The position numbers and the translations under genes were made by a program. A DNA stretch of 64,000 nt from positions 105,473 through 169,472 of the forward strand of contig VBEC01000018.1 in NCBI GenBank assembly GCA_005883615.1, given 5' to 3'. How positions within the stretch are numbered: position 1 is the stretch's first letter; each line of letters starts with the position of its first letter. Below, in pieces: positions 54,846-62,373 of this stretch. This DNA comes from Chloroflexota bacterium (GTDB taxonomy: Bacteria > Chloroflexota > Limnocylindria > Limnocylindrales > CSP1-4). The notes below the pieces were generated by a model. The model did not search any database. It was given only the letters and a program-made list of their open reading frames with translations, and had not been told where the DNA came from.

Positions 54846-54925
54846 GGTTGCCGCATTGTGCCACCCGCTCGACCGCCGGCGTCCTCAGGTTATTCTCTAG
54901 AGACGCTATTGGAGGCTTCGGCTCG

Positions 54926-55786
54926 GTGAGCGAGGGCACCGTCATCATCATCGGTGGGGCGGAGGACAAGGTCCGGGATCGGGTCATCCTCAACCGCTTC
55001 GTGTCGCTGGCCGGCGGCACGGACGCCCGAATCATGGTGATCAGCACCGCGTCGTCCCTTGGCGCGGAGGCCGGCGAGCGGTATCGCGCGATCTTCACGG
55101 AGCTGGGCGTCACCTCCATCCGCACGCTCCACGCTGTCACCCGCGCCCAGGCCAACGAAGAGAAGACGGCGCTGATCGCCCGAGATGCAACTGGCATCTT
55201 CCTGACCGGCGGCAACCAGCTCAGGCTGAGCTCGACCATCGGCGGGACGCGCCTGGCCGACGCGATCCTCGACCGCTTCCGGCATGGCGCGGTCGTCGCC
55301 GGGACGAGTGCAGGGGCGAGCGCAATGAGCAGCCATATGATCGCGTTCGGCGCCTCCGGCGCGACGCCCAAGCAGCGCATGGCGCAGATCGCCGCGGGCC
55401 TCGGCGTGCTGCCGGGGGTCATCGTCGACCAGCACTTCCAGCAGCGAAACCGGCTGGGGCGATTGCTGAGCCTGATCGCCCAGAACCCGAGCCTGCTCGG
55501 CCTCGGCGTCGACGAGGACACAGCCGGCGTGGTTGGCCCGGATCACGTACTCGAAGTGATCGGGCGTGGGTCGATCACCATCGTGGACGGCACCACCTCC
55601 GAGACCGACGCCTGGGAGGTCCGCGGCCATAGGCCGCTCATGATCAGCAACGTCGTCCTTCATTCCCTGTCGAGCGGCTACAAGTTCGACCTTCGGCGGC
55701 GGGAGCGGATCGCGAGCCCTCCCCTCCGCGCCCTGCCACGCCGGGCGCTTCCGGGCGGCGTGCCCGGAGAGGCTGCCTCGAGCTGA
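54926..55786 (+). CDS. cphB: Cyanophycinase
   Basis: VIIIGGAEDK, IFLTGGNQLRLSSTIGGT, VVAGTSAGASAMSSHMIAFG, VDQHFQQRNRLGRLLSLI, GLGVDEDTA. Confidence 0.95.
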   Translation: MSEGTVIIIGGAEDKVRDRVILNRFVSLAGGTDARIMVISTASSLGAEAGERYRAIFTELGVTSIRTLHAVTRAQANEEKTALIARDATGIFLTGGNQLRLSSTIGGTRLADAILDRFRHGAVVAGTSAGASAMSSHMIAFGASGATPKQRMAQIAAGLGVLPGVIVDQHFQQRNRLGRLLSLIAQNPSLLGLGVDEDTAGVVGPDHVLEVIGRGSITIVDGTTSETDAWEVRGHRPLMISNVVLHSLSSGYKFDLRRRERIASPPLRALPRRALPGGVPGEAASS

Positions 55787-55846: not shown

Positions 55847-58777
55847 GTGGCCCAGACCGCACCACCGCCCCGGACCGGCAACCGGCAGCCCGGACGAGTG
55901 CGAGCGACTCAATCAGGGGCCGGCCGAATCGGTGGCAACGGCGCGCTCCAACCACAGCCCAGCCTGCGGATCCTGGAGACACGCGTCCTGCGCGGCGCCA
56001 ACTACTGGGCTCGCGAGCCCGTCATCCGCATGCTGGTCGATCTGGGTGTCCTCGAGGACTTCCCCTCCAACAGGATCCCGGGCTTCAGCGACGCCCTGGT
56101 CGAGCTTCTGCCTTCCCTCGATGACCACGCCTGCTCGCTCGGCCGGCGCGGCGGTTTCATCAGCCGGCTGCGCGAGGGGACATGGGCCGGCCATATCGCG
56201 GAGCACATTGCCCTGGAATTGCAGAACCTCGCGGGGACGGACGTCAGGCACGGCAAGACACGAGGCGCCGGTCCGCCCGGCCAGTACAACGTCATCTACG
56301 AGTATCGCGAGGAGCAGGTTGGCATCCAGGCCGGCAAGATCGCCGTCGATCTCGTCAATCACCTGATCGACCCGTCGGCCTCGCCCGCTTTCGACCTCAT
56401 GGCCGAGCTGGAGCGCCTGATTCGGCTCGCCGAACGGCTCGCGTTCGGGCCTTCAACACAGGCGATCATCGACGAGGCCGTTAGTCGCGACATCCCGTAC
56501 CTGCGTCTCGATCGCCACAGCCTGGTCCAGCTCGGGCAGGGCAAGTACCAGCAGCGCATCCGCGCGACGATGACGTCACGGACGTCCGGCATTGCTGTCG
56601 ACATCGCGTCGGACAAGAGCCTGACCAACCGGCTGCTCGATTCGGCCGGCCTGCCTGTGCCACGCGCAGACGTTGTCGACACCGCCGAGGCGGCCGTCGC
56701 GACGGCCCGAAGGCTCGGCTTCCCGTGCGTCGTCAAGCCGCTCGATGGTAACCACGGGCGGGGCGTCCACCTCGATCTGCGATCGGACGAGGCGGTCGCG
56801 GCGGCCTTCGAGGGCGCAATCCGGGAAAGCCGTGCCGGCGAGGTCGTGGTCGAGACGTACGTCGCCGGGAACGACTACCGGTGCCTGGTGATCGGTGGCA
56901 AGGTCGCAGCCATTGCCGAGCGAGTCCCGGCATCCGTCGTCGGCGACGGCCAGCACACCGTTCGCGAGCTGGTCGAGACCACCAATCAGGACCCGCGCCG
57001 GGGAATCGGCCACGAGAAGGTCCTCACGCGGATCGTGGTTGACACTGCCGCCGAGGAGCTGGTGCGCGCCCAGGGCTTCGAGCTCGGCGGGATCCCGCCC
57101 GAGGGCACCCGCGTGAAGCTCGCCCTGACCGGAAACATGTCCACGGGCGGGACCTCGATCGATCGGACGATCGAGGCCCATCCCGATAACGTGGAGATCG
57201 CCGAAACGGCTGCCCAGGTCGTTGGCCTCGACGTCGCCGGAATCGACTTTATCTGTCCCGACATCGCCACGCCCGTTCGCGAAACGGGGGGCGCCATCGT
57301 CGAGGTCAATGCGGCCCCGGGCTTCCGGATGCACACCCATCCGACGGAAGGCGAGCCGCAGTACGTGGCGCGGCCCGTGATCGACCTGCTCTTTCCGCCC
57401 GGAACGACAGCTCGCATCCCGATCGTCGCGGTGACCGGCACGAACGGGAAGACGACCACCGTCCGCATGATCAGCCACATCCTCAAGCTGATGGGCCGGC
57501 GCGTCGGCATGACTTCGACCGATGGCATCGTGATCGACGGGCGGCTCATCAAGAAGGGCGACATGTCGGGCCCGAAGTCGGCGCAGATGGTGCTCCAGAA
57601 CCCGACGGTGGACACCGCGGTGTTCGAGGTGGCGCGGGGCGGGATTCTGCGCGAGGGCCTGGGCTATGACCGTAACGAGGTTGCGGTCGTGACCAACGTC
57701 ACGGGCGACCATCTTGGCCTCGGTGGGATCAGCTCGCTGGGACAGCTGGCCAACGTGAAGGCCGTCGTCGTCGAGGCGGTTCCCCGCTCAGGCAAGGCTG
57801 TCCTGAACGCGGACGAGCCCCTGGTGGCCCGCATGGGTCGTCATTGCGCGGGCGAGGTGGTCCTGTTCTCGATGGCGACGCGCAAGGGCGAGGACGGCTT
57901 CGACCGGGTCGACGGCCACACGGGGCGTGGCCACGCCGCCTTCTGCCTGGAGGAGAAGCCCGAGGGCGAGCTGATGGTCCTGCGGCTCGCCTCGCGAACG
58001 ATGCCGGTCGTGTACACACATCTCATCCCGGCGACCTTCGGCGGCCGGGCACGAATGAACGTCGCGAATGCGCTGGCGGCCGCTGCCGCAGCATGGGCCG
58101 CGGGTGCCCACCTGCACGACATCCGACAGGGCCTGCGGACGTTCACGACGTCCTTCTTCCAGGCGCCGGGACGACTCAACCTGGTGGACGTGGCAGGTGT
58201 CCGGGTCATCATCGATTACTGCCACAACGTGGACGGCATGCGCCAGCTCGCGGACTTCGTGAACCGGCTGATGGTGGACGAAGGAAACGGGGCGTCGCGC
58301 GGCGGCCACGAGCGGCGCAGGACAGGCGCCGCCGCCGGAGCTGGGAGAGCGGGTTGGGCACCGGAAACCGACCGCAGGGGCCGATCCGGGCGGGCGATCG
58401 GTGTCATCGGGGTGCCGGGTGATCGGCGCGACGACGATCAGCGAGAGTACGGGGCCCTCGCCGCGACGGCGTTCGACGAGATCATCGTCCGCGAGGACCG
58501 CAACCTGCGTGGCCGCCAGCCCGGTGAATCGGCGTCCAACGTGATCGAGGGAATCCAGGCAGCACGCGCCGGCGGCAAGGCCCGCACCGGTCGCGCCGAC
58601 AAGATGCCGATCGAGCTTGCGGCGGCACGAGCGGCCCTGCGCCGGGCGGCCCCGGGGGATCTCGTCGTGATGTGCGTCGACGACGCCGTCGCGGTCTATC
58701 GGCAGGCGATCGCCTCGTCAGGGGCCGGCGACGCGGCCTTCACGCACCCGGGCGAGCTCGAGGTGCCCGAGGGCTAG
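55847..58777 (+). CDS. cphA: Cyanophycin synthetase (ATP-grasp plus Mur ligase)
   Basis: LRILETRVLRGANYWAREPVIRMLVDLG, GFPCVVKPLDGNHGRGVHLDLRSDE, VTGTNGKTTTVRMISHILKLMGRRVGMTSTDGIVIDG, EVARGGILREGLGYDRNEVAVVTNVTGDHLG. Confidence 0.97.
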   Translation: MAQTAPPPRTGNRQPGRVRATQSGAGRIGGNGALQPQPSLRILETRVLRGANYWAREPVIRMLVDLGVLEDFPSNRIPGFSDALVELLPSLDDHACSLGRRGGFISRLREGTWAGHIAEHIALELQNLAGTDVRHGKTRGAGPPGQYNVIYEYREEQVGIQAGKIAVDLVNHLIDPSASPAFDLMAELERLIRLAERLAFGPSTQAIIDEAVSRDIPYLRLDRHSLVQLGQGKYQQRIRATMTSRTSGIAVDIASDKSLTNRLLDSAGLPVPRADVVDTAEAAVATARRLGFPCVVKPLDGNHGRGVHLDLRSDEAVAAAFEGAIRESRAGEVVVETYVAGNDYRCLVIGGKVAAIAERVPASVVGDGQHTVRELVETTNQDPRRGIGHEKVLTRIVVDTAAEELVRAQGFELGGIPPEGTRVKLALTGNMSTGGTSIDRTIEAHPDNVEIAETAAQVVGLDVAGIDFICPDIATPVRETGGAIVEVNAAPGFRMHTHPTEGEPQYVARPVIDLLFPPGTTARIPIVAVTGTNGKTTTVRMISHILKLMGRRVGMTSTDGIVIDGRLIKKGDMSGPKSAQMVLQNPTVDTAVFEVARGGILREGLGYDRNEVAVVTNVTGDHLGLGGISSLGQLANVKAVVVEAVPRSGKAVLNADEPLVARMGRHCAGEVVLFSMATRKGEDGFDRVDGHTGRGHAAFCLEEKPEGELMVLRLASRTMPVVYTHLIPATFGGRARMNVANALAAAAAAWAAGAHLHDIRQGLRTFTTSFFQAPGRLNLVDVAGVRVIIDYCHNVDGMRQLADFVNRLMVDEGNGASRGGHERRRTGAAAGAGRAGWAPETDRRGRSGRAIGVIGVPGDRRDDDQREYGALAATAFDEIIVREDRNLRGRQPGESASNVIEGIQAARAGGKARTGRADKMPIELAAARAALRRAAPGDLVVMCVDDAVAVYRQAIASSGAGDAAFTHPGELEVPEG

Positions 58778-58991: not shown

Positions 58992-60746
58992 TTAGCTCTC
59001 GGGGCGTTCCTGCAGCCTCGGGATGAGCTCCGCCAGGTCGGTCGCGACGTCAACCGGTCGAGCGCCCAGCTTGCCGAGCAGGTCGAACACCTCATCGCGC
59101 TCCTGGTGGCACATGAGCACGATGATTCGAGGTGAATTGGCCAGGCCATCTCGCCCGCCCGCCGAGCCGGTGAGCTCCATTCGCAACGCCTCGGTTTCGG
59201 ACTCGTACACCGGGACCTCCGCGGTTGGCTTGCCGCCTTCCCGAACGCCTGCCAGTAACTCGCCTACGATCGAAGCGCGGGATCTACCCCGGAGGTAGTC
59301 CAGCGTTTCCTTGATCGCCACCCGCTGGGCCCGGCGCGCGGCGATACGGCCGATGCCGCGCAGCGTGTCGTCGGGCCGATCGCCTGCCGTCCCGATGATC
59401 AGGGTGATCGGGGCCGCGCGGCCGGCGGCGCCTCCAGCTATCCCTTCGGCCACGTCGAGCACGGCACTCGTCCCCGCCTCGTTGTGGGCGAAATCGATGA
59501 TCACCACGCGCGATCCGAGGCGGTAGATGTTCAGCCGACCTGGCGAGCGATCCGAGGTCGGCCGGAAATCCCGCAGCCCGTGCGCGACCTGCTCGAGGGT
59601 CGCTCCGAGCCCACGCGCCGCGCCAGAGGCGGCGAGGGCATTCGCGACGTTGTGCCTGGCCAGGCCAGCGATCGTGAGCGGCACGTCGCGCAGACGAGCT
59701 ATCTCCGAGCGCCGTTCGCCCTCGACCTCCACGAGCCGGTCGCGGTCCAGGATGTAGGCGCGCCCGCCGGCGGCGATGTGCCGCCGCGCGATCGGGGAAC
59801 CGCCCTTCGCAATCGAGAAGATCGCGACCGGTGCCCGCACGCGCGCGGCGATTGCGGCGACGTACCGGTCGTCGCCGTTGAGGACGACCCAGCCTTCGGG
59901 CTTCGTGATGCGGCAGATCGTTGCCTTGACCTCCGCCAGCTCGGGCAGGGTGTGGATGCCCTGGAGATCGAGGTGGTCGGAGGTGACATTGGTGAGCACG
60001 CTGGCGTCGTTCGACTCGTAGCCCACGCCGCGCAGGACGATCCCTCCGCGGGCGGTCTCCAGGACGGCGACGTCGATGTCGGATCGACCGAGGATCTGGC
60101 TCGCACCGCCCGGTCCGGTCCAGTCGCCGGGGTCGACCATGCGCTCGTCGATCAGGACGCCGTCGGAGGTTGTCGTGCCGACATGGCGCCCGGCAAGCAG
60201 CAGGATGTGCGTGATCAGGCGCGTCGTGGTGCTCTTGCCGTTGGTGCCGCTTATCGAAACGATGGGGATGCGTCGATCGGCGTCGCGCAGCCAGGTTGGC
60301 GGCGGGCCGCCGGCAGCCTCGATTCGCTCATTCCAGCGAGCGACCAGCCGCGACCGGCGGCCGGTCTGGCGATCCGATCGCGCAGGGGAGATGTCACGCT
60401 CGGCGAGGTGGAAGGCTGCCTCGGCGATCTCCCGGCCGCGGTCCGAACGGCTCCACGGGTAGGTCAGGATCCAATGGCCGGGGTCCGATGAGAGGTGGAC
60501 CGCCGTGCCGTCTCGGCCCTCGTCGTGGTCCGCCCGCAGTCGGCGGATCCAGGCGGCGAGCACGGCCACCTGATGAGGCCGCTGTCGAGGCGGCACGCGC
60601 GCGCCCAGGCGAACCACGGCATGACGACCCGGCTCGCGCTGTCCGTACCAGGTCCGTCGCCGGCCGATTGCCACTTCCAGCTTGACGGCCGGGTCGAGCC
60701 GATAGACGTTCGGGCCGTCGAGCAGCCGGATTTCGATCAGACGCAC
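58992..60746 (-). CDS. CphA-like Mur-ligase-domain protein lacking the ATP-grasp domain
   Basis: LRDADRRIPIVSISGTNGKSTTTRLITHILLLAGRHVGTTTSDGVLIDERMVDPGDWTGPGGASQIL...VLETARGGIVLRGVGYESNDASVLTNVTSDHLDLQG; no ATP-grasp motifs in the N-terminal ~160 aa. Confidence 0.88.
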   Translation of the reverse strand: MRLIEIRLLDGPNVYRLDPAVKLEVAIGRRRTWYGQREPGRHAVVRLGARVPPRQRPHQVAVLAAWIRRLRADHDEGRDGTAVHLSSDPGHWILTYPWSRSDRGREIAEAAFHLAERDISPARSDRQTGRRSRLVARWNERIEAAGGPPPTWLRDADRRIPIVSISGTNGKSTTTRLITHILLLAGRHVGTTTSDGVLIDERMVDPGDWTGPGGASQILGRSDIDVAVLETARGGIVLRGVGYESNDASVLTNVTSDHLDLQGIHTLPELAEVKATICRITKPEGWVVLNGDDRYVAAIAARVRAPVAIFSIAKGGSPIARRHIAAGGRAYILDRDRLVEVEGERRSEIARLRDVPLTIAGLARHNVANALAASGAARGLGATLEQVAHGLRDFRPTSDRSPGRLNIYRLGSRVVIIDFAHNEAGTSAVLDVAEGIAGGAAGRAAPITLIIGTAGDRPDDTLRGIGRIAARRAQRVAIKETLDYLRGRSRASIVGELLAGVREGGKPTAEVPVYESETEALRMELTGSAGGRDGLANSPRIIVLMCHQERDEVFDLLGKLGARPVDVATDLAELIPRLQERPES

Positions 60747-60794: not shown

Positions 60795-61080
60795 CCCCTA
60801 CATCACCTGGCGGGCTGGCGGCGGCCCTCCCTTCGGTCGGAGCGACGCCCTGCCGCCAGGTGTCTCGGGGCGCCACCCTTCCGCTTTGCCACGCACCCTC
60901 GCCGGCTGGGGTAGAGCGACGCCCTGCCGGCACGGACCTGTAGCCCGCAGATCCCGCTGGCGGGCTGGCGTCGGCCCTCCCTTCGGTCGGAGCGACGCCC
61001 TGCCGCCAGGCATCTGCGGGCTCCTTTCTCCGCCGCGCTTCGGTCGGAGCGACGGCCTGCCGCCAGGTATCTGGGGGCTC
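60795..61080. repeat. Intergenic cluster of hairpin-forming repeats (two full and two partial copies)
   Basis: 60811-60860 and 60961-61010 identical at 49/50 positions, exactly 150 nt apart; third partial copy 61037-61067; fragment about 60914-60929; flanking inverted repeats. Confidence 0.9.
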
Positions 61081-61122
61081 CTCACTCCGCCTCCGCAACA
61101 GCGTCGCCGGTAGACTGGGTTG

Positions 61123-62373
61123 ATGGATGCCCTTCGAATCGACGCGGCCGGAGCTGGCGTGCGAGACGAGGAGCTGGCTGCGTTGAGGGACGGGGTTGAG
61201 GCGCGACTCCCCTCCTTCCTGGAGGACCTGGCTCGGCTGGTCAACATCGACTGCGGGAGCTACACCAAGGCCGGAGTCGACGAAGTCGGCCGGTGGACTG
61301 CGGCGCGGCTTCGCAAGCTTGGAGCCGAGGTCACCGTCCATCCCAACAAGCAGCTCGGAGACACCGTGGTCGGCGTTTTCGACGGGGCAAGGACCGGCGG
61401 CCCGCGCCTGCTCCTGATCGGACACATGGACACGGTCTTCGAACCCGGCACCGCCGCCGAGCGCCCCTTCAGAATCGAGAATGGACGCGCCTACGGACCC
61501 GGCGTCACGGACATGAAGAGCGGCCTGCTGGCAGGCCTGTACGCCATCGATGCCCTCGAGGCGCTGCTGGCGGGAGGCGAGGAGCCGCTTCCGTTCAAGC
61601 GCCTGACGTTCGTGGCCAATCCCGATGAAGAGATCGGCTCGCCCGCGTCTACACCGGTCATCCGCGAGCTCGCCCGTGATGCCGACGCGAGCTTCGTCCT
61701 GGAGTGCGCTCGTGCGAACGGCGACATCGTCTCGTCGCGCAAGGGGATCGTCGACCTGCGCGTCACGGTCCATGGCCGTGCAGCGCACGCCGGCGTGGAG
61801 CCGGAGAAGGGCCGAAACGCGATTCTCGAGGCGGCTCGGCTGGTCGAGGCGATCCAGGCCCTGAATGGGCGGTGGCCGGGCGTCACCGCGAATGTTGGCG
61901 TGATCCGGGGCGGCACGCGCCCAAACGTCGTCCCGTCCGAGGCCGAGCTCGAGGTCGACCTCCGCGCGATGGCCCGCGACGACCAGGTGGCTGCCGAGAC
62001 CGCCGTCCGGGAGCTGGCGCGCAACCCATCCGTGTCGGGTACGACGATCGATGTGACGGAGGTCGCCGGCCACTGGCCGATGGAGAAGCTGGTACGTTCC
62101 GGGCGTCTGGTGGAGCACGCGAGAGCACTCGCCGTCCGGCTCGGTTTTCCGCTCAACGACGCCGCCACCGGCGGCGCCTCGGATGCCAATACGACGGCCG
62201 GGATGGGAGTCCCGAGCCTTGACGGCCTTGGACCAATCGGTGGCAACGACCATGCTCCCGAGGAGTACCTCGAAGTCGACTCGATCGTTCCGCGGACGAC
62301 CCTGCTGGCCGGCCTGCTCCTGGCCACCGCGCGCGATCCCGTGATCGCTGGATGGCGCGACGACCGTCCGTGA
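61123..62373 (+). CDS. M20-family metallopeptidase (glutamate carboxypeptidase-like)
   Basis: LLLIGHMDTVFEPGTAAERPFRIENGRAYGPGVTDMKSGLLAGLYAI, NPDEEIGSPAS, VHGRAAHAGVEPEKGRNAI. Confidence 0.93.
   Translation: MDALRIDAAGAGVRDEELAALRDGVEARLPSFLEDLARLVNIDCGSYTKAGVDEVGRWTAARLRKLGAEVTVHPNKQLGDTVVGVFDGARTGGPRLLLIGHMDTVFEPGTAAERPFRIENGRAYGPGVTDMKSGLLAGLYAIDALEALLAGGEEPLPFKRLTFVANPDEEIGSPASTPVIRELARDADASFVLECARANGDIVSSRKGIVDLRVTVHGRAAHAGVEPEKGRNAILEAARLVEAIQALNGRWPGVTANVGVIRGGTRPNVVPSEAELEVDLRAMARDDQVAAETAVRELARNPSVSGTTIDVTEVAGHWPMEKLVRSGRLVEHARALAVRLGFPLNDAATGGASDANTTAGMGVPSLDGLGPIGGNDHAPEEYLEVDSIVPRTTLLAGLLLATARDPVIAGWRDDRP

Follow-up and report, generated by a model that had tools for sequence, protein, structure and literature searches.

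Cyanophycin is regarded as the product of a single enzyme, CphA, whose biochemistry rests largely on the cyanobacterial and Acinetobacter enzymes. In CphA1, the ATP-grasp G domain adds aspartate to the backbone. A second CphA-like gene, CphA', lies beside cphA in some Proteobacteria. MurE (UDP-MurNAc-tripeptide synthetase) has a fold and ATP chemistry in common with the CphA-type Mur ligases; its DNPR motif contacts the incoming amino acid, and by analogy with MurE the RGR motif is the donor carboxylate site. The N domain of CphA1 bears a zinc-peptidase motif, Cx19HxxEH, which generates primers and is found in 83% of CphA1s (PMC9262961). CphA2 (PDB 8FXI) is a CphA-derived paralogue, described as cyanobacterial, with an N domain that also lacks the peptidase motif (PMC9262961) and with one active site, which polymerises dipeptides (PMC10206079).

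We analyzed a window of 64,000 nucleotides from a Chloroflexota genome (3.06 Mb, 94% complete), in which a gene for a CphA-type Mur ligase without a G domain, here called a solo, stands beside cphB and cphA. The features of the locus are as follows.

54848..55786, plus strand: cyanophycinase gene (cphB), ahead of cphA; TIGR02069 at 270 bits against a cut-off of 126.6.
55847..58777, plus strand: cphA, a complete CphA1 (N domain with C-x19-HxxEH, ATP-grasp G domain, Mur M domain), convergent with the ligase gene.
58992..60746, minus strand: N'-M ligase gene (solo CphA-type Mur ligase), 584 aa, GTG start, frame intact.
60312..60746, minus strand: N' domain (aa 1-145), a degenerate CphA N domain in which the zinc-peptidase motif Cx19HxxEH is missing, from hhalign, AlphaFold/PDB matches and motif count.
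59562..60278, minus strand: M core (aa 157-395), the Mur ligase ATPase core (Pfam Mur_ligase_M), including E230, D257, H258 and K274; catalytic residues invariant.
60228..60248, minus strand: P-loop GTNGKST (aa 167-173), with K invariant in 70/70 solos.
59910..59912, minus strand: R279, the equivalent of SuCphA1 E607, charge reversed in solos (alignment; PMC9262961).
59067..59561, minus strand: M lid (aa 396-560), Pfam Mur_ligase_C, including the conserved residues R404, H421, D456 and R457.
59283..59312, minus strand: donor-site loop KETLDYLRGR (aa 479-488), which lines up with DNPR of MurE; compared with CphA, it has one extra residue and lacks the CphA Asp.

The sequence-only reading had described the 584-aa product as a CphA-type M ligase lacking ATP-grasp, next to a complete cphA, and both descriptions held. 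The open reading frame contains the M-domain motifs quoted in that reading, and its only Pfam matches were Mur_ligase_M (165-377) and Mur_ligase_C (403-532), both over the gathering scores (PF08245, 74.4 against 24 bits; PF02875, 29.7 against 28.4 bits). No ATP-grasp model of Pfam matched the protein even at E 0.1, and no G domain was found by Pfam, NCBIfam or Foldseek in the whole protein or in N' alone. The CphA model TIGR02068 matched the solo at 372.3 bits over its C-terminal half only (model positions 474-837), below the cut-off of 850; the neighboring CphA reached 1119.7 bits, with the Pfam Cyanophycin_syn N, ATP-grasp and Mur domains. By BLASTP the two proteins were 38% identical over 390 aa of the M domain (E 6e-56). 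The curated cut-offs of the other Mur families were missed (MurE, 112.6 against 373 bits; FolC, 41 against 163; MurT, 33 against 800). Thus, the solo falls outside the definitions of CphA1 and CphA2, since its G domain is absent, and below the MurE, FolC and MurT cut-offs; it is a member of the Mur ligase superfamily and a CphA-derived variant. In cultured carriers RefSeq names it merely "Mur ligase family protein". We found no published description of the solo in the open-access papers searched; one may exist elsewhere.

The predicted structure agreed with this placement. The AlphaFold model of the whole solo had a pLDDT of 91.5 and a pTM of 0.91, and its top PDB matches were CphA1 structures (7lgj, E 1.6e-37, TM 0.76, 892 alignment columns), with MurE structures at E 1e-20 in Foldseek; the 892-column match to 7LGJ is consistent with what is expected of a modeled N plus M protein in which the G domain appears as a gap. 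The first ~160 residues had been described earlier only as devoid of ATP-grasp motifs, which was borne out by profile and by structure, including the search for an ATP-grasp fold that had been named as a possible refutation; these residues do, however, have a recognizable origin. A weak pairwise BLASTP match linked the solo N-terminus to CphA residues 40-179, and in one hhalign comparison 20 Chloroflexota N' regions matched 60 CphA N domains with 95.7% probability (E 9.4e-9). The N' regions from outside the Chloroflexota matched CphA N at 5.5%, which is not significant, and Chloroflexota N' at 95.8%. The AlphaFold model of N' alone had a pLDDT of 88.2, and its 12 best PDB matches were all CphA1 or CphA2 (best E 1e-4, TM 0.48-0.62). 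A sequence-profile search of N' against the PDB placed CphA at a nonsignificant E of 0.83, so that the significance of the assignment comes from hhalign and Foldseek and not from that search. The HxxEH motif was present in 0/55 solos, and Cx19HxxEH in 62/62 CphAs examined. Thus, the first ~150 residues of the solo form a CphA N domain that has degenerated and no longer carries the zinc-peptidase motif, and the N' fold matches together with the whole-model match to CphA1 indicate that the architecture is N'-M, that is, CphA minus the G domain. An ATP-grasp remnant in the N-terminus was rejected by Pfam, profile and N' fold searches, and we also rejected the solo as a replacement for the primer-making activity of the N domain, because CphA keeps the motif and all solos have lost it.

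The solo resembles CphA1 (TIGR02068; PDB 7LG5, 7LGJ, 7WAE) in its Mur core and lid, its catalytic residues and the N scaffold ahead of M, and differs from it in lacking the G domain and the zinc-peptidase motif. CphA2 is likewise CphA-derived and is among the N' fold matches; its likely homologues, however, match G and part of M, whereas the solo keeps M without G. The adjacent second CphA-type gene to which we apply the name CphA' was seen in four gammaproteobacterial genomes, where it extends from the N domain across G and into M (three span model positions 2-716 or 2-625, and the fourth is broken), whereas the solos cover 475-860 only.

Several other features of the window were recorded. 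An M20-family peptidase gene (61120-62373, plus strand), with PRK06133 (glutamate carboxypeptidase) as its best NCBIfam match just under the cut-off, lies beside the cyanophycin genes and could be a candidate local dipeptidase for beta-Asp-Arg. Three near-identical 29-bp copies of CTGGCGGCAGGSCGTCGCTCCGACCGAAG (60831-60859, 60981-61009 and 61038-61066, minus strand) sit where repeats are dense, between the ligase and M20 peptidase genes; no further copy occurs elsewhere in the window, and zero are expected by chance. The ligase had no PADLOC match and was rejected as a defense-system gene, and promoter and terminator scans found nothing.

We addressed the distribution of the solo among related genomes and, for other groups, by a family search in which solos covered model positions ~475-860 and CphA covered 1-861. 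These searches scored only a few candidates per genome, so that absences are less certain than presences; the solo of the alphaproteobacterial genome G790 was first missed and then found. Solo orthologues at 42-81% identity were present in 23 related genomes, each also with a full-length CphA-type match; among the 61 relatives, the 24 solo genomes (including that of the window) all had a CphA-type match, and the rest had neither at E 1e-30. In Chloroflexota, the two genes converge in families f1, f4, f19 and f76, lie in tandem in f46 and are not linked in f25, and families f16 and f53 had CphA alone. Outside this phylum, solos were found in 18 of 26 planctomycetotal CphA genomes, in tandem and directly downstream of cphA (in 2 of the other 8, cphA stood at a contig end), in 6/13 CphA genomes of Gammaproteobacteria, in 4/5 alphaproteobacterial genomes over the cut-off (G435, G790, G865 and G933) and in 14/16 of Actinomycetota, mostly convergent with cphA, with one more broken. 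At nine other alphaproteobacterial-type cphA loci no solo lay within the examined flanks, which weighs against a dedicated partnership with CphA. One Lysobacterales genome (G436) had, besides its cphA-solo pair and apart from it, another two matches of CphA M type (C117:9265-10644 and C67:19091-20299, in reading frames of 768 and 660 aa, spanning model positions 400-852).

Clustering of neighboring genes was blurred by reverse-frame ORFs in high-GC DNA, which left the clusters of cphB and iadA as the usable ones. The order iadA-cphB-cphA-solo was observed in Planctomycetota and some Proteobacteria. Two cultured bacteria, Ruegeria sp. THAF33 (solo WP_152460471.1) and Shinella zoogloeoides ATCC 19623 (solo WP_160788060.1), have cphB-cphA-solo. 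Operons that join the solo to cyanophycinase and isoaspartyl dipeptidase genes raise the alternative of a salvage or capping ligase, which would take as substrates the beta-Asp-Arg dipeptides or short oligomers that cyanophycinase releases, or cap chain ends, and would thereby tune turnover and not side-chain composition. The cyanobacteria fit this alternative as well: solos were found in 0/62 CphA-bearing Cyanobacteriota genomes, and the second matches there span G and some of M, the pattern to be expected from the dipeptide-polymerizing CphA2. The active site, considered below, bears on it in both directions.

Adjacency to cphA and 38% identity to its M domain could also suggest that the gene is a recent truncated duplicate of the adjoining cphA with no special function. 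In the M-domain tree, which covered CphA, solo and MurE sequences with MurE as the outgroup, MurE separated from CphA plus solo with a support of 100. The solos thus stood next to the CphA M domains and not with MurE, and with the FolC and MurT scores well under their cut-offs, the affinity to folate/MurT-like ligases that the sequence-only reading had named as a refutation was not found. The CphAs formed one group (SH-aLRT 98) with the solos outside it, and solos and CphAs were still apart when Actinomycetota, two plasmid loci and one Legionella protein were added. Constraining all solos to one clade cost 0.19 log-likelihood units and was not rejected (p-AU 0.50). These groupings, together with conservation over several phyla with intact frames, make a truncated duplicate scarcely credible; intact frames, tree and conserved residues likewise ruled out a recent truncation or pseudogene. 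As solos and CphAs separate in the trees, the solo is, judged from sequence, an ancient paralogue of CphA and not a local truncation. Solo divergence also tracked that of the N and G domains of the partner CphA (39 pairs, r = 0.87, with 0/2000 permutations as high), which indicates that the pair was largely inherited together. Thus, beyond what had been noted from the window, the gene is an ancient CphA partner in several phyla and not a one-off.

Two lineages departed from the common pattern. In Chloroflexota family f25, the 542-aa solo M ligases at L278:5536-7161 and L280:6081-7706 have the solo-type loop length, are not near cphA and branch separately on a long stem; they are possibly a third subgroup with its own role. 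In Legionella adelaidensis (L286:5299-7188; NZ_LR134428.1, 54195-56063), a 630-aa "Mur ligase family protein" beside cyanophycinase and isoaspartyl peptidase lacks the G domain and retains the N-domain HxxEH, and in the tree its M domain falls among the CphAs, L252 being the nearest, and apart from the solos. This protein may, from its sequence, be a CphA that lost the G domain, an independent N-M arrangement.

We compared the active sites of 70 solos and 83 CphAs in SuCphA1 numbering. K499, E558, R561, D585, H586, K602, N696, R731, D745, H748, D776, R777 and R805 were invariant in 70/70 solos, and the T500 and T522 positions held T or S. Among them, K499, the Mg ligands and, in the lid, R731/H748 as ATP contacts have been described in TeCphA1 (PMC9427784), and D585A/H586A inactivates the SuCphA1 M domain (PMC9262961). 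A noncatalytic partner, a structural or regulatory CphA subunit acting through N'-M contacts after loss of ligation, might be suspected from the faster evolution of the solo (mean identity 0.46-0.51, against 0.62-0.63 for the CphA M domain); yet invariance of all tested catalytic residues in 70/70 solos is unexpected of a pseudoenzyme, and we consider such a partner highly improbable.

Two regions of the active site were systematically changed. The loop before RGR was 8 residues long in 70/70 solos and 6-7 in 83/83 CphAs; the Asp of the DNPR-equivalent loop was present in 71/83 CphAs and 2/70 solos, and YL stood ahead of RGR in 51/70 solos and 0/83 CphAs. The RGR motif itself was conserved in solos, which thus have KExxxYLRGR where MurE has DNPR. 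The second change affects position 607, which was R/K/H in 64/70 solos and E/D in 76/83 CphAs (R in 3/83); E607 of the SuCphA1 M domain contacts cyanophycin in the cryo-EM structure (PMC9262961). The two changes together likely point to altered specificity, each with a qualification. The loop Asp is also missing in 12/83 CphAs, so that this residue alone is no proof of a donor change; E607R may simply reflect the loss of the N-domain peptidase site in solos, since the role of E607 is known only with the chain lying on that site.

These residues also weigh on the alternatives that keep the solo active. As an auxiliary arginine adder, it would, just like the CphA M domain, place Arg on terminal Asp, and would only raise the rate or repair bare-Asp ends, which would suit its linkage to cphA and the conservation of all catalytic residues and of RGR. 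However, the CphA M domains are catalytically complete in solo-bearing genomes, and almost every solo of the five groups is altered in the donor loop and at E607, a long-standing divergence that would be needless in a redundant enzyme; we therefore regard this alternative as unlikely. The salvage or capping ligase introduced above gains from the loss of the polymer-binding N-domain site and the reversal of E607, which suit a small or differently held acceptor, and loses from the acceptor side, where R561, D585 and H586 are the same as in CphA M; on balance we judge it similarly doubtful.

Homology, domain content, invariant catalytic residues and linkage to cphA/cphB in five bacterial groups formed the computed basis for reading the solo as a partner ligase. 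Its assignment as a ligase and to the cyanophycin pathway is made with high confidence. Somewhat better than evenly supported is the fuller proposal, drawn from sequence comparison, that the solo is an active ATP-dependent amide ligase and a dedicated CphA partner with changed donor or chain-end recognition. In this proposal, the solo would phosphorylate a carboxylate of cyanophycin or a fragment of it to give an acyl phosphate; as for the CphA M domain, the target would most likely be the side chain of a terminal Asp that is still unmodified, given that the acceptor-side residues match those of CphA; an amine would then be joined to the activated carboxylate, with the solo working in trans on the CphA product. 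Because the DNPR-equivalent loop and E607 are both systematically changed, the solo may take another amino acid as donor than CphA does, or a chain end presented in another way; we give this step of altered specificity even odds. A point against the proposal is that the partner CphA, with its M domain complete and its N-domain peptidase motif present, should already make cyanophycin alone. The solo would accordingly bring a function of its own and not restore a lost one: that it complements a dead CphA M domain was rejected, the M catalytic residues being intact in the CphAs of solo-bearing genomes. The sequence-only reading had suggested a different side chain, a modification of the polymer or a related dipeptide as the product, and the changes in the loop and polymer contact would fit altered recognition while naming no substrate.

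Taken together, the presence of one more conserved synthetic gene, the third, in the cyanophycin operons of Actinomycetota, Chloroflexota, Planctomycetota and Proteobacteria points to an unrecognized step in the making, finishing or recycling of the polymer. We tentatively proposed, as a conjecture more doubtful than the partner role itself, that the storage polymer of most noncyanobacterial producers in these lineages might not be plain multi-arginyl-poly-aspartate, with N'-M attaching either a second type of amino acid or one more residue to the side chains of Asp or the ends of the chains, a widespread variant that would have passed unnoticed because the model cyanobacteria lack the gene. 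Many bacteria may make or edit a polymer other than the one assumed, and if the donor is not Arg, the solo would be a tool for altered polymers.
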